Source: Acaryochloris sp. CCMEE 5410 | GTDB taxonomy: Bacteria > Cyanobacteriota > Cyanobacteriia > Thermosynechococcales > Thermosynechococcaceae | NCBI RefSeq assembly: GCF_000238775.2 | Contig: NZ_AFEJ02000002.1 | Location: 1,659,501-1,723,500 of the forward strand | Direction of reading: 5' to 3' | DNA length: 64,000 bases | Part shown: positions 1 through 57,677 of the stretch, piece by piece | Layout of the letters: each line of letters starts with the position of its first letter | How positions within the stretch are numbered: position 1 is the first letter of the stretch | Made by a program: the position numbers and the translations under genes | Notes under the pieces: generated by a model | What the model saw: only the letters and a program-made list of their open reading frames with translations | What the model was told of the DNA's origin: nothing | Databases searched by the model: none

Positions 1-1950
1 TCTTCTCGCAGACAATTAATTTCTAGGAATAAAGAGCCAGGATATCAACCCGATACCATTGATAGTGGTTGGACATGGTTGTTTCCTGGCATGTATACCA
101 TATACAAGGAGCCTGTAGTTGAGGTACCTCCTGGAGAAATTGCTCTTGTTTTTGCCCATGATGGAGAAGATATTCCTAATGAACGCATACTAGCAAAATA
201 CGTTAAATGTAATAGCTTTCAAGATGGTGATATCTTTTTACAAAAAGGTGGTGAAAAAGGACGGCAGTTAGGTATTTTAACAGGAGGGACTTCTTATCGA
301 ATTAACACGAAACTATTTACGGTAATTACTCGCTCTAACTTAGCTGACCATGATTCAACACTAAAGCCTGAAGACCTACTAGTTTACAAGATAGACTCAG
401 ATAAAATTGGGATTGTAACTACCTCAGACGGTGCACCCCTCGAAACCGGAGAGATAGCAGGTCCTACTATCTCAGGTCACGATAATTTTCAAAGTCCCCA
501 AAAGTTTATCGATGGAGGAGGTAATAAAGGACTGCAAGAAGATGTTCTCTCTTCTGGACCATGGAATTTAAATCCTTGGTTTGTGAAAGTAGAACAAGTG
601 CCCCTAACGGAGATACGCGAGGGAACAGTCGGTGTTGTAGTTTCATTAATTGGTGAGGGGAAAATGGGGAGGAGCATTGAAAACTCTTCCTCTGAGTTGA
701 GCCTATTTACCAATAGATATGATTTAGTTGATCGAGGAAAGAGAGGTGTTTGGAAAGAACCTCTTGATGTTGGTTCATACCCAATTAATACGAAAGTCAG
801 GCGAATTGTGCTTGTTCCAACACATCAAATCACTTTAGATTGGTCAAACGATGAAAGCAAGCCGGATGAAAACTACGATAAATCGCTGGGCACCTTAACT
901 CTGCGACTTAAGGATAGAATTCCTGTAGATATAGTAGTAAGACAGCGCTTTAGAGTACCTAAAGAGAACGCGCCTCTTATGGTTTCACAAATCGGCTCCC
1001 CAGGAGACATAACTACAAACTCGATAATCACTGATTATAGTGCGACTGTCCAAAAATATAAATCTATTCGAGATCTCATCGTCAGAGTGTTAGAGCCAAC
1101 AGTCAGGAGCTATTTCTATAATGCGGTTCAAGACTGTGAGGCGGAGGATTTTTACATTCACCGAAGCGACCAACAGAAAGATGCTGCTCAATATCTAAAG
1201 GGAGTCTTGAGAGAGCATGGAGTGGAGGCAATTGACACGCTAATAGGCGAGATAGATCTGCCAGATGTATTCGATAATCTTGAAATTAAGCGCAAGTTAG
1301 AGGAAAAAAAGAGGAATCTGATAGAACAAGAAATATTAACTGAGGATCTCAAACGGAAGTTGGCTTATTTGAAGGCAGTTACAGGGAAGCAAGAAGAACT
1401 AGTTAATTCTCAAATGAGTTTAGAATTTGCCGAGCGAGAGGCTCAGGTCAAACTTCAAAAAGCACTTGCTGACGCGAAAGCTATGCGAGAACAGGGACGA
1501 GCTCAAGCTGATGTGGAACTAGCTCTTAGACAAGCAATTAGTGACGCTCTTGGTCAAAGGGCTTATATCGAGATAGAAAAACTAAAGGAGATAAGTAAGT
1601 TTAAGCTGCCTCCCATTGTTGGAGGAAATGAAGGCTCCGGTGCTGGATTATTGATTGATACGTTGTTGGCTTCAGTAATGGAGAACTTAACAAGTGGCAA
1701 TTCCGAAGCAATCAGTGGAAGCATTATTGAACAGGTTGCAGCTTTATTTTCGATAGATTTGAATGAACCAGAATCTAAGCAGCTTAAAAGTTCGTCAGAT
1801 ATACAAGTTGTTAACTCTGAGACGACGGCTTCATTGTCTGAAGATACTTCAGTTGTTTGCAACAGCTGCGGAACTCTGAATCCTCCTAACCATAAGTTTT
1901 GCTTTGAGTGTAGTAGTCCTTTGGTATACTCCTCAGACTCAAAAAAGTGA
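1..1950 (+). CDS. SPFH/band-7 domain protein with C-terminal zinc ribbon (5' partial)
   Basis: The frame is open from the first base of the window, so the start lies upstream; a TTG at 79 is only an internal start candidate. The middle (about nt 880-1290) reads like an SPFH/band-7 domain, the flotillin-stomatin fold that oligomerises on membranes. A charged helical stretch rich in Glu, Lys, Ala and Gln follows (about nt 1290-1570), as in the flotillin coiled coil. The last 30 residues hold CNSC and CFEC pairs (nt 1858-1911), a four-cysteine zinc ribbon. Flotillins normally lack a zinc ribbon, so this is a divergent member. No membrane segment is visible in the part present. Family assignment is by motif reading; the role is unknown. 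Confidence 0.7.
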   Translation, partial: SSRRQLISRNKEPGYQPDTIDSGWTWLFPGMYTIYKEPVVEVPPGEIALVFAHDGEDIPNERILAKYVKCNSFQDGDIFLQKGGEKGRQLGILTGGTSYRINTKLFTVITRSNLADHDSTLKPEDLLVYKIDSDKIGIVTTSDGAPLETGEIAGPTISGHDNFQSPQKFIDGGGNKGLQEDVLSSGPWNLNPWFVKVEQVPLTEIREGTVGVVVSLIGEGKMGRSIENSSSELSLFTNRYDLVDRGKRGVWKEPLDVGSYPINTKVRRIVLVPTHQITLDWSNDESKPDENYDKSLGTLTLRLKDRIPVDIVVRQRFRVPKENAPLMVSQIGSPGDITTNSIITDYSATVQKYKSIRDLIVRVLEPTVRSYFYNAVQDCEAEDFYIHRSDQQKDAAQYLKGVLREHGVEAIDTLIGEIDLPDVFDNLEIKRKLEEKKRNLIEQEILTEDLKRKLAYLKAVTGKQEELVNSQMSLEFAEREAQVKLQKALADAKAMREQGRAQADVELALRQAISDALGQRAYIEIEKLKEISKFKLPPIVGGNEGSGAGLLIDTLLASVMENLTSGNSEAISGSIIEQVAALFSIDLNEPESKQLKSSSDIQVVNSETTASLSEDTSVVCNSCGTLNPPNHKFCFECSSPLVYSSDSKK

Positions 1951-2080
1951 AATGTGAAGTGGTCCCCACTGATTGGACAATTTTAGAGGGGAGCTAAGCT
2001 CTGATAATAGATTTAATCAACCCAGTCAGAGTTACGCCTAGTTTTGTATCCTAAGGTAGCGGGTAATATATGGATGCCAT

Positions 2081-2647
2081 TCAGCTTAGCTCCAGCGCAA
2101 ACCCTGGTAGTACATCTTCCCCAGACACAGTAGCCGGAAGCAGCACAATTTCGGCCTCTTTCCCCGCTCGATATATCTCTACTGTTTGATCCTGAGGATT
2201 AATCAACCACCCCAGCCTCAAGCCACTGTCTAGATACTCCAACATCTTTGCCTGTAAAGGCCCCAAGCGATCGCTTTTTGAGCGGAGTTCAATCACAAAG
2301 TCGGGACAAATGGGCGGAAACTGCTCCTTTTCCTCTAGGGAAAGCGCATCCCAACGTTCTTGGCTCACCCAGGCAGCATCAGGAGAACGATCCCCTCCAC
2401 CAGGCAGTTTGAACATAGTGGACGAACTAAAGACTATACCTAGGCCAGCTTGGCGATTCCAGAGATTGAGGTCAGTAATATAGTCTGCTTCCTTGCTTCC
2501 ACTTCCACCACCAACTGGGGGCATAATGATCAATTCTCCCATTGGGCTACGCTCCATAGCCACGTCTTTATTGGCCATACACAGTTTATAAAACTGCTCA
2601 TCGGTCAGTGTCACTACCGGTTCTAAGTTGAGCGTGATAGCCGTCAT
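2081..2647 (-). CDS. Uma2 family endonuclease (DUF820)
   Basis: A protein of about 188 residues of the Uma2/DUF820 family, which is greatly expanded in cyanobacteria and has a PD-(D/E)xK nuclease fold. SPDAAWVS, CPDFVIELRSKSD and a late GWLINP segment match the expected order of the fold, with the Asp and Glu-x-Lys-like positions present. The frame is open up to 2749, but ATG at 2647 gives the usual family N-terminus, which starts just before a VTLTDEQFYKL segment. The gene is single, downstream of raf1 in the same direction with a 182-bp gap, so co-transcription is doubtful. The substrate of these proteins is not established. Confidence 0.82.
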   Translation of the reverse strand: MTAITLNLEPVVTLTDEQFYKLCMANKDVAMERSPMGELIIMPPVGGGSGSKEADYITDLNLWNRQAGLGIVFSSSTMFKLPGGGDRSPDAAWVSQERWDALSLEEKEQFPPICPDFVIELRSKSDRLGPLQAKMLEYLDSGLRLGWLINPQDQTVEIYRAGKEAEIVLLPATVSGEDVLPGFALELS

Positions 2648-2829
2648 AACTGGAATTCGCGATCTTACGGATTCATTATTTGTAGAAGCGCTGACTCTAA
2701 GATTACACACAATGCCTACTGATTGGCTTTTGCTCACAATCTCAACCACAGATTTGGGAGCAGCATACCCCGTCTGCTTGGCACAGGGTAGAAGTTTTTC
2801 ACAGGCTGAATCGAAAGTTCAGCAGCTCT

Positions 2830-3900
2830 CTACTCATCCGTATGCCAAGGATCCTTCGTAAAATTCTCATCCAAAATCCGCTTAGGCCGCATCACCAAAA
2901 CCACCTGCCCATAAAGCTTCTGCTCAGGAGCCTCCGCAAACCACTGCACCTGTAACTGCCCATCCGCCTCCACCAAAAAATAGCAGTCCTCATGCCACTG
3001 CCGCTGATCGCGATCAACAATCACCAACACCTCCTCCGTTGGCCGAGGCAGATCCAGGCCTAAATCTTGCACCTGCGCTAACAACGCCACCGGATCCTCC
3101 GCCCGCAAAATCACCTGCCACCCTGGCACTGGCACCCAAGCACAAGTTCCTGAAAACTGCACCATCCCAAACGGCTCTTCCTCCTCCACCACAGGCACCG
3201 CCTTCAAATCCGTCAGAGTCAACGGCAAGTGCCCCATCACCGGCATCAATCGGGGCAACTCCTCCTCCGATTCCAACCGAAAAAACGGTAGGCGAGGAGC
3301 CTCTTTCGCCTTCACCACCGAGAAATCACTCAACAGCATTTGTAGCTGCTCTCGTGCTGAATCACTATGGGCAAACTTTAGCCCCTGGCCAATTAAACGA
3401 GAGCGCTCCTGCAAATCATCCTTTTGACGGGCAAAATACCAGCATCGATAGGCCATGGCATCTCCCGGTGTATCGGTGAATCCCACCGGAGTCTCCGAGA
3501 GACGACTGAACTCCTTCATCGCTTTTGCGATCGCACGGGCTTCATCTGCATCCAACTGCTTCTCAGCCGCCAGAGTAGCTGCTGCCGCTCGTTCCACCTG
3601 ATTCAACACCCGAAACTCATAGAGAATATCGCTACGGCGCTCACCAAAATATTGGCAAGCCGCCTCTGCCCCCTTATCCTTCAGGTTTTGATAGACCTGT
3701 CCCGCCACAATAATTTGGTTCTGCTGAATCGGCTCAATCCCAGATTCTTCAAAAATCTGCTGGGGACTATAGCCCGCTTTCTGGAGCTGCTGACATGCCA
3801 TGCCCCAGTCCACCCAGGTTTTCTCCTTACGGCGCAGCATCAGCAAAAGCTGGTCAACATCAATATCAGGGCTAGATCCAGGGGGCGTAAAGGAAGTCAT
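2830..3900 (-). CDS. raf1: Rubisco accumulation factor 1 (Raf1)
   Basis: A 356-residue protein with the features of cyanobacterial Raf1, an assembly chaperone that brackets RbcL dimers and helps form the L8 core before RbcS joins. The N-terminal helical part (about 15-200) includes RRKEKTWVDWGMACQQL and a YSPQQIFEESGIEP motif. A proline-rich linker leads to the C-terminal beta domain (about 215-350). ATG at 3900 is preferred over an in-frame TTG at 3906. It lies 24 bp after the activase stop on the same strand, so the two are probably one transcript. It sits 3 kb downstream of rbcLXS, which supports the assignment. Raf1 is known to act with RbcX and GroEL; the link here is from position. Confidence 0.9.
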   Translation of the reverse strand: MTSFTPPGSSPDIDVDQLLLMLRRKEKTWVDWGMACQQLQKAGYSPQQIFEESGIEPIQQNQIIVAGQVYQNLKDKGAEAACQYFGERRSDILYEFRVLNQVERAAAATLAAEKQLDADEARAIAKAMKEFSRLSETPVGFTDTPGDAMAYRCWYFARQKDDLQERSRLIGQGLKFAHSDSAREQLQMLLSDFSVVKAKEAPRLPFFRLESEEELPRLMPVMGHLPLTLTDLKAVPVVEEEEPFGMVQFSGTCAWVPVPGWQVILRAEDPVALLAQVQDLGLDLPRPTEEVLVIVDRDQRQWHEDCYFLVEADGQLQVQWFAEAPEQKLYGQVVLVMRPKRILDENFTKDPWHTDE

Positions 3901-6060: not shown

Positions 6061-6094
6061 AAAAAGGAGGAGAGGTAGGTTAACCTACCTCTCC
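6061..6094 (-). terminator. Rho-independent terminator of the rbcLXS operon
   Basis: A perfect 26-bp palindrome lies at 6069-6094 (13-bp arms, GGAGAGGTAGGTT and its complement). On the minus strand it is followed by CCTTTTT (the A-run 6061-6065). It lies 40 bp after the rbcS stop codon. The uninterrupted arms mean only a small loop can form, and the hairpin is very stable. Confidence 0.85.
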
Positions 6095-33348: not shown

Positions 33349-35172
33349 TTAGAAGGAGAACGTGGCCCGAACTAATCCCTGAATAATGTCATTGGGGTTG
33401 CCGTTACTGACATTGAAAGGGTTCGTAATCAGCATGACAGTCGGTGTGATCGTAATGTTCTCATTCACGGGAAACCGATAAAACGCCTCAAAGTTAGTTT
33501 GGGCAGAATAATTAGGATCCGTAGTGCTGACAATAAACGGCTGACCGGCTGCTACCGCAAGCAGAGACCCTGGCACGAGTAAGTCATTAACACCTACGCC
33601 GGCCATCCAGGTTTGAATGCTGCTGTTATTGCCAACAGGCAGAACATTTTGGAATAGATCATTGTTAACCCCACCAAAGGCAAGTTGAGGATCAATGGAA
33701 ATTCCATAGCGACCAAAAATGCCGAATTGTCCCAGGGTCAACTCAACGTTGGCACCAATGATATTTTGGTTAACGTTATAGGTTTCAGCATGGGTAAACT
33801 GGGCCCGAATCGCAAAGTTATTTTGGTCATCTTCACCAAAGTCACTGGAATATTCAATCTCAGCAGAAGCTTGGAAGGGATCTCCAAAGAGCCCCCCCTC
33901 ACAGGTATTGAGGGGATCAGTACAGGCATTCGCTGCATTACCAGACGCAATGCCAGCATCTGCGGCAATAAATAGACCTCGAACGCTCACGGGTCCACCG
34001 TTAACATTCCAGTCAAACGCAGCACCGGCACCACCTGGCCCATCAACTGCTTCAGAAATAATCAACGGGTTATTGATAAAGAATCCAGAACTGAAATCAG
34101 CTGCTTCATCGTTGGCGTAGCTGTTGCCATCAATGAAGGCACTAGGATAAATCAAGGGACCAACCGTTACCGCTAGGTTTTCGACGGGCTTGAAGGTATA
34201 TCCCAAGTTATACAAAGTAACGCCAGGACCAGAACCGGTATAGTCCACCACACCAGGATCCCCTAAAGTTGTGGCAGTTCCTGCGCCAACAACGGGAGGA
34301 ACAGGAAAGAAATTAGCGGGACCCGCAACCCCTGCAGATGAGAAGAAGTCAGAACCGCCGTTGCCCGTTTCCAATGTCAAATCGAGGACATCATCTCCAT
34401 TAAAACTGGTGAGGAATGACATCCGTACTCGGGAAATGGCACTCACTCGAGAATCCCCAGGATCAACGTTGGCAATGCCTGGGACTCCTGTATCTACAGC
34501 AGCAACGCCTGTTGCCGCGGCATTAGGGGTCGGAATATTATCTCCAGGATTATCTACAAAATCTCCAAACTGAGCAGCCATGATGACTTGCGCTTGCAGT
34601 TTAGTCGTAGTTGAAAACTGCTGTGCTTCTACGGTGGCGACACGAGCTTCTAAACCGTCAACACGACCTCTTAATGTTGCCAGCTCAGCCGCAAATTCAT
34701 CTTGAAGGGCCTTGAGCGCATCTAAGTCTTCTTTAGTAGCGAACCGATTACTGAGATTATCTAAGCAAGCGTTAACCAGGGCAGCTGCTTCCCGACGAGA
34801 CATGGCTCGGCTGGGGCGGAAGGTGCCGTTGGGATAACCTGCAACACAACCATAGCGCTCGACTAAGGATTGAATCGCTTGAAAAGCCCAGTCATCGGGC
34901 TGGACATCTGAAAGCTGAGACACTGACGTGACCTGGCCAACAGAATCGGCTTCCGTTTCAGCCATAAGATCAGATACAGCGGGCGTATTATCAGCAACTA
35001 ATAACGGCTGTTGCTGGCTCACCTGGCTGTTGGCAGGCGCATCGACAGCAGCACCTGAAACATCTAAATTCTCGGAAACTTCGGAAGATGTAGTACTAGC
35101 ACTCGCCATGCCAGTCACGAACAACGCACTAGACAAGCCAATGACGCTGGCCATCAATCGAAAATATTGCAT
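33349..35172 (-). CDS. SLH-domain outer-membrane porin, iron-uptake type
   Basis: A 607-residue exported protein. ATG 35172 follows GAGG and opens a signal peptide (LMASVIGLSSALFVTGMASAS). A surface-layer homology domain comes next (about 90-145), with WAFQAIQSLVERYGC and GYPNGTFRPSRAMSRREAAALV, then a short coiled coil and an OprB-like beta barrel ending in Phe (LVRATFSF). This is the usual build of cyanobacterial major porins. A perfect Fur box at 35249-35271 makes an iron-linked role likely, as shown for some Slr1908-type porins. The terminal strand and final Phe are intact. Confidence 0.88.
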   Translation of the reverse strand: MQYFRLMASVIGLSSALFVTGMASASTTSSEVSENLDVSGAAVDAPANSQVSQQQPLLVADNTPAVSDLMAETEADSVGQVTSVSQLSDVQPDDWAFQAIQSLVERYGCVAGYPNGTFRPSRAMSRREAAALVNACLDNLSNRFATKEDLDALKALQDEFAAELATLRGRVDGLEARVATVEAQQFSTTTKLQAQVIMAAQFGDFVDNPGDNIPTPNAAATGVAAVDTGVPGIANVDPGDSRVSAISRVRMSFLTSFNGDDVLDLTLETGNGGSDFFSSAGVAGPANFFPVPPVVGAGTATTLGDPGVVDYTGSGPGVTLYNLGYTFKPVENLAVTVGPLIYPSAFIDGNSYANDEAADFSSGFFINNPLIISEAVDGPGGAGAAFDWNVNGGPVSVRGLFIAADAGIASGNAANACTDPLNTCEGGLFGDPFQASAEIEYSSDFGEDDQNNFAIRAQFTHAETYNVNQNIIGANVELTLGQFGIFGRYGISIDPQLAFGGVNNDLFQNVLPVGNNSSIQTWMAGVGVNDLLVPGSLLAVAAGQPFIVSTTDPNYSAQTNFEAFYRFPVNENITITPTVMLITNPFNVSNGNPNDIIQGLVRATFSF

Positions 35173-35248
35173 ATTAATCCTCACACACATGTTGTTGAAA
35201 TAAAGTTGGGCTATGTCAGAAAAACTGAAAACCCATACCAAACTGTAT

Positions 35249-35271
35249 CAGAGAATGATAATCATTCTCTG
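35249..35271. promoter_or_regulatory. Fur box upstream of the porin
   Basis: CAGAGAATGAT-A-ATCATTCTCTG is a perfect 11-1-11 inverted repeat and matches the Fur consensus (GATAATGAT-A-ATCATTATC) at most positions. It lies 77 bp upstream of the porin ATG, where repression by iron-loaded Fur would block the promoter. Confidence 0.85.
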
Positions 35272-35317
35272 ACTTTCTTCAGTTGAGAAGAAACTTAACC
35301 ACATTCACCCATATACT

Positions 35318-35878
35318 TCAAAAATGCTGCTGAAGTATGTGGGTGATGTTCTTGGGCTTAACCCTGGTGTAGCGAGTCTTATCTGGTAAGACAACCAGAT
35401 TGGGTCCAGCTTTGCATTTGCCCACACAACCCATCGGTTGCAACTGAATCTCTTTATCTCGGCCTGATGTTTGCAAGGCCGTATTCAAGGCGGTTAAAAC
35501 TTGCCGACTGCCGCGTTTACGACAACTCGATTTCTGACAAATTCTAATTTTGCCTTTCTGTACATTACAAACAGCGTGAGGACTTGGCTCAATATCGTCG
35601 TTGGAAGAACTACCGGGTAGAGCAGGCATGATTGACTTAGCTTTCAGTTTGACCTTGCCTGTTTTGGTATTCACTTTCTGACAACCCTGAATTTGGATCC
35701 ATGTTCCAGGTTGTAGAATTTCAGCACAGGCTGGCCGTAGCGCTTTAGTTAGCTTGATATATTGCTCTCCTCGGGAGGTCGACAACCGAATGCCCTTGAC
35801 GTTACAACCTTTTGACAGAACATAAGTTAGAAACCGACCACTAAGGGTGAAATCAGATTTCTTTGTATGCTTACCCAT
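35318..35878 (-). CDS. Thioredoxin-like [2Fe-2S] ferredoxin-domain protein
   Basis: A 186-residue protein. The C-terminal half has the four cysteines of a thioredoxin-like [2Fe-2S] ferredoxin: CQKSSC (C-x4-C) and GCVGKC (C-x3-C), with PNLVVLPD after them. The N-terminal half (GRFLTYVLSKGCNVKGIRL) has a beta-rich, possibly nucleic-acid or protein binding character, and it is not otherwise recognised. ATG 35878 lies inside the end of the preceding fragmented gene, suggesting coupling. It is immediately upstream of the Fur-controlled porin. Its electron-transfer partner is unknown. Confidence 0.8.
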   Translation of the reverse strand: MGKHTKKSDFTLSGRFLTYVLSKGCNVKGIRLSTSRGEQYIKLTKALRPACAEILQPGTWIQIQGCQKVNTKTGKVKLKAKSIMPALPGSSSNDDIEPSPHAVCNVQKGKIRICQKSSCRKRGSRQVLTALNTALQTSGRDKEIQLQPMGCVGKCKAGPNLVVLPDKTRYTRVKPKNITHILQQHF

Positions 35879-36979
35879 AAAACTTAAACTGTGTATTCCT
35901 ATAATGCTGCCGATCAATCCCTTTCAAATGGTGCTGCTCTTGCAAAGACTCCCATAGATAACCAGGGATATCTGGAGATGGGCAGGTCATCATGGCGATA
36001 TTGGCCAACTCACTTTTGCAATAGTGAAGCCCTATTTTTGCACTGCCATCCAGAACGCTTTGGTATGGAATTTGAGCCGTATTGGCCCTACCAATAAAGA
36101 AGTCGATCCATCCCTCCTGTTCTTGTCGAATACAGGGTAGTACTTCTGTGGTAGACCGTTTGGTCTTTTCAAGGCCAACACTGTTCCAGCCATTCCACCA
36201 ATTCCGTCCTCGAAGCCACAAATTGCTGGAGGACACTGTAAACTTGAGCGGCTTCCAAATCATTGTTTATCTCCACTCGCAACTGCCCATCTAAAGAACA
36301 CCATGCCTTGAGAGAAAGCTCCTGTAACCGCCGTTGGACTTGCCGATGGTCCCCAGGGCAAACTCTCCCAAGGAGTGATTCAATCGTGGACTGATATCCA
36401 GATGGGCGCATCCATAACCTCCAAACGGCTTGATAGCGGAGTAACGAACTTGAAACAAACGATCCCCTCTTAGCTAAACAGTCACGTCTAAGTGACACGA
36501 CCTGACAACTGCCATCCATCTATAGTGATAGATCGATCAGACAGAAAAATTTTTTGAGTGGTTAACGCCACACGCTCAGATAGATTACGGGCAGCGGACT
36601 GATCAAAATCAGCGGCTAGGACAGCTTGAGATCGCAACCTCAATCCCCTCTGCATCAATCGCTCCGTAAACCGATCGCCAATAGACAACTGAGTTAGGCG
36701 TCTCAAGTGAGCTAGAACAATCACGGTAAATGCGGATAAACAGTCCCGACCGGAGGGCAGAATGCCTTCCAAAACTAGCTTTTGCTGTTTAAGATTAGCG
36801 TCTGTGCCATCAGGGCAGGTCATACAGCGCTTAGAAGAGCTCAATAGATCACCTTCTTTTCCCTTAAAACCCACCGCCAGTTCCTGTAAATGGGTCAGCC
36901 TTAATCCCTCTCGTTCGCTTTGTTGGCTCACAATTGGCAACACTGACATCCTGAATCTTTGCTTAGGTGAGGCAATCAA
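35871..36979 (-). pseudogene. Fragmented gene in three frames
   Basis: Three overlapping minus-strand frames follow each other: 36979-36488, 36519-36169 and 36263-35871. The overlaps are short, and each later frame continues where the earlier one ends. Joined, they would give one protein of about 360 residues, with CMTCPDGTD in the first part, RVCPGDHRQVQRRLQEL in the second and GRANTAQIPYQSVLDGSAKI in the third. This looks like one gene disrupted by two frameshifts, though three small genes or a sequencing error are possible. No family is recognised. It ends 8 bp inside the ferredoxin gene start. Confidence 0.45.
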
Positions 36980-37363
36980 TTGAAAATTGATATCAATTAA
37001 TCCCTATCAAAAAATTAGCAGAGAATAAACTTTACTGCAACTAATTTGCAACAAAGTCGTCACCATCCAAGGCAAGGTAGTACAAAATAGCTAGGGTAAA
37101 AAGCAATCAGTCTGCTTAAAACCTTTGGCGAGAGAAGACCTCGCCCGCCATTCCGTCATTTCAATCATCCATGACGTTTCATCCTAATTACATATTATTG
37201 ATGAATATTCCTATAAGAAATAGTTGTACTATTTTGAAGCAAAATATGTTGTCTGGTAAAAAATTTCATTAACTAGCCCGCTCTCCCAGATTCAGTCTCA
37301 CCCGATCTTCAGAACCGAAACGGAGTCAATCAATCTTTTAGATGTGGAAAAATTGGATTCGGA
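36980..37363. other. Intergenic region between the fragmented gene and devA
   Basis: No gene is visible. A perfect 14-bp palindrome AATTGATATCAATT lies at 36985-36998, immediately upstream of the fragmented gene. A GGCGAG-N7-CTCGCC hairpin lies at 37127-37145 without a good T-run. It may be the 3' region of devBCA. Confidence 0.5.
36985..36998. promoter_or_regulatory. 14-bp palindrome, candidate operator
   Basis: AATTGATATCAATT is perfectly symmetric and lies 6 bp upstream of the first open codon of the fragmented gene. Its AT-rich TTGATATCAA core is weakly reminiscent of a Fur half-site arrangement, which would suit the iron-related neighbours, but it is not a clear consensus match. Confidence 0.3.
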
Positions 37364-57287: not shown

Positions 57288-57677
57288 AGATTTAAAATAT
57301 TGCTTCAATACAGAATGCGATTAGAAAAAGAAAAATTAATGCGAAAAAATTGATTCTTCCTGTTCGGGAAAAACCAATTCGCTATATTTACATATATTTA
57401 CGTTTTTTTGGATATCAGAAAGTAGCTAATTACACAATTTAGAAATTGCATCAATAGCATTGCTTCATTGAAAATTATGCATAATCATTCAATATCCTCC
57501 TGGATGAAGCGCATGTCTACATGTGGAGGTTTCTTTCGGGCGTGTTGAGTCAACTGTCATGAACCGAATAGCAGAAGTTTGCCGTTCCACAAGAATTTTA
57601 TGGCTAGACGTTCAGTCAAAGGCTTGACTTGCCCATACTAAGTACAGTGTTTACTCAGACTTAGGATTGGATGTAGT
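57288..57677. other. Intergenic region upstream of the FHA gene
   Basis: No gene is visible. It is AT-rich from 57309 to 57480. A hairpin-like CCTCC ... CATGT-CT-ACATG ... GGAGG arrangement lies at 57496-57529, followed by TTTCTTT. The region serves the divergent cupin (minus) and FHA (plus) genes. Confidence 0.45.

Follow-up and report, generated by a model that had tools for sequence, protein, structure and literature searches.

A predicted Zur box upstream of an SLH/OprB porin gene in Acaryochloris sp. CCMEE 5410 and its counterparts in related cyanobacteria

The whole stretch of DNA analyzed here, referred to as the window, is a 64-kb segment (G000:C2:1659501-1723500) of the 8.09-Mb genome of Acaryochloris sp. 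CCMEE 5410. On its minus strand, a porin gene (33349 to 35172) lies downstream of a gene (35318 to 35878) encoding a thioredoxin-like [2Fe-2S] ferredoxin (PF01257, E=3.5e-11), and a palindrome at 35248 to 35272 sits between the two. The predicted porin, a 607-aa precursor, matched PF04966 (OprB, E=5e-24), PF00395 (SLH, E=2e-10), and the NCBIfam model NF033921 (por_somb, "iron uptake porin"; 263.9 bits, cut-off 100), and its closest named relatives were from Acaryochloris MAGs, at 91% identity. These matches agree with the SLH porin and the adjoining ferredoxin-like gene named in a first-pass annotation of the same DNA. The likely start of the porin is the ATG at 35172, and GTGTGTGAGGA together with this ATG was kept across seven aligned porin upstream regions. 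An imperfect hairpin at 35305 to 35346, with 16-nt arms that are 94% complementary and without a clear T run, falls where the ferredoxin gene ends and is a possible transcript end.

The palindrome, TCAGAGAATGAT-A-ATCATTCTCTGA, is perfect over 25 bp, slightly longer than the 23 bp first assigned to it, with 12-bp arms centered on A35260. It ranked second in length among the perfect palindromes of the window; the longest, at 6082, has 13-bp arms and an even center. The Fur consensus of Escherichia coli is GATAATGATAATCATTATC. From this sequence the central 19 bp of the palindrome differ by two mismatches (17/19), and at three mismatches or fewer GATAATGATAATCATTATC gave four matches in the window, equal to two sites found on both strands, compared with a mean of 0.01 after shuffling (n=100). 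The first-pass annotation took the palindrome for a Fur box unusually good for a cyanobacterium, an impression that can be explained because the box matches the published core of the cyanobacterial Zur box, given as NTNANAATGATNATCATTNTNAN (PMC9337993); by an eye count, the core agreed at 12/12 and the specified letters at 14/16. Positions 2 and 22 are T and A in the published 23-mer but A and T in the window box, and the outer letters also vary across the 16 zinc-type sites described below. Its 13-bp core, AATGATAATCATT (35254 to 35266), begins 94 bp upstream of the porin start.

A terminator-like site was also called on the plus strand at 35248 to 35272, and the palindrome might be read as an RNA hairpin or terminator instead of an operator. 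The sole listed plus-strand ORF just upstream (34928 to 35203, 91 aa) is antisense within the porin gene and probably no true gene, while the same sequence is found again before zinc genes and holds its place before porins, leaving the hairpin reading with next to no credence.

Elsewhere in the genome, the exact core AATGATNATCATT kept the company of zinc genes. It was found at seven places, and a reversed-pattern control at none. Five of the seven lie within 53 kb of contig C1, in a zinc-type island, and have the same letters as the core of the window box; the sixth is at the porin, and the seventh (C2:258958) falls within the final part of a caspase/FGE-domain gene, with no zinc gene adjoining. 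Homologues of FolE, ThrRS, HisI, and HemB in the island scored above NCBIfam cut-offs, and its COG0523/ZigA-like GTPases, ZnuA/C/B-like genes, and a CcmM/carbonic-anhydrase-like gene scored under the curated cut-offs. The Zur regulons described for Anabaena sp. PCC 7120 and Synechococcus sp. PCC 7002 include znuABC, hemB2, and folE2, and that of Anabaena additionally includes thrS2, COG0523 genes, and TonB receptors (PMC6103462). The island resembles these regulons in the kinds of target gene (PMC6103462) and in the core of the box (PMC9337993). A variant core, AATGATACTCATT, occurs at G000:C1:2348428 and G000:C1:3779999, in one case before an ABC-ATPase-like gene and in the other ahead of a transposase-like gene and, next after it, a metal-binding-protein-like gene, all labeled by reading; perhaps the two sites belong to one old operon that was split in two.

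A FUR-family gene also lies in the zinc island; among PDB entries its product matched best to 7ne9, the structure of the Synechococcus Zur protein SynZur (E=3e-28). In an alignment to this structure, counted by eye, the equivalents of H79, C95, and H115 were kept and D77 was replaced by His, a variant with a reported frequency of 11%. The predicted Zur gene lies at G000:C1:3713351-3713791, and a likely paralogue lies at C1:3851230-3851673. Eight FUR-family genes were counted in the genome; by reading, they divide into two FurA-like genes, three PerR-like genes, two Zur-like genes, and one of another kind. This genome contains both the same box before known types of Zur target and a Zur-type protein.

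Under a Zur matrix made from 16 non-porin zinc sites, which were picked by the same core as the window box, the palindrome scored 23.8 and ranked first in the 64-kb window; the next site scored 9.4, and in 400 random pieces of the window, each 461 bp long and free of the box, the maximum was also 9.4. Under a Fur matrix, made from only four iron-type sites assigned to FurA from position and pattern, the palindrome scored 5.7 (rank 55 of 127952 positions), and the training sites themselves scored 26.6 to 31.5.

The first-pass annotation had proposed that the porin is repressed by iron through a Fur box, and several observations lean that way: the 17/19 likeness to the E. coli consensus, the name of the NF033921 family, and the effect of Slr1908, a porin of the same kind, on the iron content of Synechocystis (PMC8707739). 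The arms of the window palindrome read GAGAAT, which is nearer the iron-type hexamer, and most zinc sites read GATAAT. We compared the box with a set of 17 iron-type upstream regions from the same genome, comprising those of feoA, three TonB receptors, isiA-like, fecB-like, exbB/tonB-like, and dps-like genes, and neighboring genes of the iron cluster; the labels were assigned by reading protein starts, except for FeoA/FeoB, the first isiA-like gene (PF00421), and the TonB receptors. In all 17 the core was matched with no fewer than three mismatches, and the window box does not share the motif of the iron-type sites. Clear palindromes were present in 3/17, before the first isiA-like gene (ATTGAGAATTAATCTCAAT), one TonB receptor, and one AraC-like gene, and were of another type; the remaining upstream regions had no clear palindrome, and several of them are probably internal to operons. 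The iron-type pattern TTGAGAATNATTCTCAA, at two mismatches or fewer, occurred at nine places in the genome: one before the first isiA-like gene, two elsewhere in that cluster, one at a distance of 376 bp ahead of a FurA-like gene, and the other five on contigs C4 and C5. At three mismatches or fewer it occurred at 92 places, compared with 32 for the reversed control. An OprB porin has been predicted before as the target of a Fur-family regulator, namely oprB-1 (alr0834) in the FurA regulon of Anabaena (PMC4005646), but the FurA consensus given in that paper, AAATAAATTCTCAATAAAT, is unlike the window core. Looking for further copies of the box in the genome, a check suggested along with the iron reading, thus led to zinc-type genes and to none of the 17 iron-type upstream regions.

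Within Acaryochloris, the exact core lies 92 to 100 bp before porin orthologues in five of the seven genomes (the window and loci L066, L067, L074, and L075). The genomes G001 and G006, 87% and 82% complete, had no exact core anywhere and no equally close orthologue among the matches listed. Within the genus, the tree needs two changes of label. The two nearest orthologues, L064 and L065, are 91% identical to the window porin and both come from G003; their cores have decayed, with Zur scores of 10.7 and 13.9. The same genome carries a porin of this clade with an exact box and a COG0523-like gene ahead of it (L075) and the end of a clade porin facing homologues of znuB-znuC-znuA-hemB (L077); each ends at a contig end, and the two may be parts of one gene. 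Also in G003, an exact Zur core in L228 (G003:C84:1-3528) heads a segment, 1516 to 3528, with a 62-aa ORF like the leader of the window porin and then a TonB-receptor gene (AMIN and Plug domains), where a receptor may have acquired the promoter of the porin. Another exact core, at position 602 of L232 (G003:C179), lies upstream of a gene for a possible methionine synthase, judging from how its start reads.

The copy at L065 (429-5806) is divergent to feoA/feoB, and this neighborhood might be taken to favor iron control. Its Zur box is the decayed one, and the Fur-like site between this porin and feoA/feoB (score 20.3) resembles a site scoring 12.3 upstream of feoA in the genome of the window, where no porin adjoins. 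Taken with the low Fur-matrix score, the different Anabaena consensus, and the iron-type genes that lack the core, these observations make iron repression through a Fur box quite improbable. What stands of the original proposal is an apparent operator of a Fur-superfamily regulator placed for the porin and an expected logic of repression by metal; the regulator and the metal named there are not supported, given the zinc genes and the Zur-type regulator that accompany the box and the other type of the palindromes seen at iron genes.

The ferredoxin neighbor is weak evidence for iron, because no match to it was found in the available DNA around porin copies L065 and L075 and because its own cluster has a Fur-like site further upstream. 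A link between the box and the ferredoxin gene was rejected, since matches to the latter were missing around those two copies, and the gene is probably outside the zinc unit. The top Fur-matrix site of the window (36976 to 37000, score 20.9) lies at the start of the minus-strand cluster whose last gene is the ferredoxin gene and may be the iron switch of this neighborhood. The corresponding cluster is preceded by sites scoring 18.9 to 22.9 with the Fur matrix in L064, L066, and L074 and by a weaker one (11.8) in L067; a dps-like gene, so labeled by reading, belongs to that cluster in L064 and L074. The second-ranked Fur-matrix site of the window is at 57464 to 57488 (17.6).

From the sequence comparisons above, the palindrome is very probably a Zur box, and the porin would be repressed by Zur while zinc suffices and derepressed when zinc is short. 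A promoter scan of 35100 to 35500 gave no sigma-70-like match; a TATCAT within the box might serve as the -10 element. Cyanobacterial Zur has been reported to repress via sites overlapping -10 elements (PMC9337993, PMC10957091), and repression at the window box would be of the reported kind.

Zur might not act alone. Under dual control, Zur would be the main repressor and FurA would also bind, on overlapping hexamers, so that the porin would respond to both metals. Weak binding of FurA to the box is possible because of the GAGAAT arms and because the box of L067 scored 11.2 with the Fur matrix, and in Anabaena, znuAB has been described under both FurA and Zur (PMC4005646). The window box, however, was 55th with that matrix, and we consider a two-metal response unlikely, though deserving of thought.

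The association of box and porin extends beyond the genus. The 29 family genomes (about 111 Mb from rounded sizes) contain 62 exact cores, compared with three in the control. The surroundings of 51 of the 62 were examined, mostly 1.5 to 3 kb either side, and in 33 of these the locus included a homologue of a zinc-island gene or a metal ABC transporter. Eleven cores precede SLH porins, one precedes the porin leader remnant of L228, one a TonB receptor (L229), and five had none of these. By chance, about 0.05 of the 62 cores would be expected before porins (275 porin matches of 350 bp each, or 0.09% of 111 Mb), compared with the 11 observed. In a second genus, g11, boxes precede SLH porins in eight of 11 genomes, as five exact cores and three near-cores scoring 18.3 to 24.5. 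Porin upstream regions in two others (G018 and G026) scored 8.4 and 13.9, and G027 had no box at the one porin examined. One of the eight, G028, has only two exact cores, one before a znuA-znuC pair and the other before the porin, and a variant, AATGATAACCATT, precedes znuA homologues in both of the g11 genomes examined for it (L277, L282). In G013, from another genus, an SLH porin is preceded by an exact core, and a porin of G011 carries a site with a score of 21.0. A single origin of the boxed porins in the family was considered and set aside; a single gain is not supported, because the family tree needs at least five changes of label. Beyond the family, the link between box and porin was not seen among 78 of 80 related porin loci (L077 and L080, in which the 5' end of the gene is missing, were excluded, and L073 and L112 have fewer than 20 bases upstream): exact cores were found in four, all from Acaryochloris, and three further loci have a one-mismatch core 282 to 345 bp upstream.

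The genome of the window encodes six further porins above the family cut-off. Five of their six upstream regions were scored (C1:85401 was left out); none had a Zur-type site, the best score being 5.9 and the best core match having two mismatches. In the tree, the window porin and its orthologues, both boxed and decayed, formed one group (100/100), separate from these paralogues. Metal-ligand residues were rejected as a mark of the boxed porins: no His, Cys, or acidic position was found that is common to boxed porins of both genera yet absent from unboxed ones, and His 461 is present in five porins of the window clade, in one of eight boxed g11 porins, and in one of ten unboxed porins. The porin precursor is acidic (64 D+E versus 22 K+R), which might suit cations in general. 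As no pattern of residues singles out a zinc-specific pore, the safer picture is a general cation pore that would be made on zinc shortage, as has been proposed for MspD, a porin of Mycobacterium smegmatis that is induced by zinc starvation and by deletion of zur, with wider passive entry of zinc as the proposed outcome (PMC13098993). The logic of a Zur-dependent porin is alike in the two cases; mycobacterial MspD is unrelated to the window porin, and no homology is claimed.

We infer binding by Zur, repression, and the passage of zinc through the pore, and the model can be stated as follows. When zinc is sufficient, zinc-loaded Zur, from the predicted gene and perhaps also from its paralogue, would occupy the box and block the porin promoter. 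As zinc falls, Zur would be released, and the porin would be made alongside the ZnuABC-like importer, COG0523-like chaperones, and zinc-sparing enzymes; more porin would then let more zinc diffuse across the outer membrane.

Zur boxes and Zur regulons are already known in cyanobacteria; an SLH/OprB porin as a candidate Zur target, predicted here from sequence, was not found reported. Routes of zinc entry across the cyanobacterial outer membrane described in the literature, as far as it was available, are TonB receptors, the exoprotein ZepA, and, more loosely, single porins. The outer-membrane targets of the Anabaena and Synechococcus regulons are TonB-dependent receptors, in contrast to the SLH/OprB porin predicted here. 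According to PMC9705863, none of the porin-like genes studied in Anabaena was found to be under Zur, and the transcript of all5191 rose on zinc limitation and on iron limitation. The word "porin" is absent from the main text of four papers on cyanobacterial Zur (PMC9337993, PMC10957091, PMC4628125, and PMC12058595), and no cyanobacterial report of such a target was found in the literature searched, of which coverage was partial, so that an earlier mention is possible. Slr1908 of Synechocystis, which is the same protein kind (NF033921), has been tied to iron (PMC8707739), in contrast to the zinc-type operator on the window copy.

That the family keeps a dedicated zinc-starvation porin, with recent copies divided between metals by their promoters and not by metal-binding residues, is a tentative idea that we rate well below even odds; G003, with a Zur-type copy near COG0523 and znuBCA genes and a feoAB-linked copy with a decayed Zur box, would be an example. 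What looks like a near-perfect E. coli-style "Fur box" may, in a cyanobacterium, be a binding site for Zur, and the label "iron uptake porin" is not to be taken as the function of all members of its family. If the reading is true, a Zur-controlled SLH porin in two genera would represent a passive, zinc-controlled route across the outer membrane.
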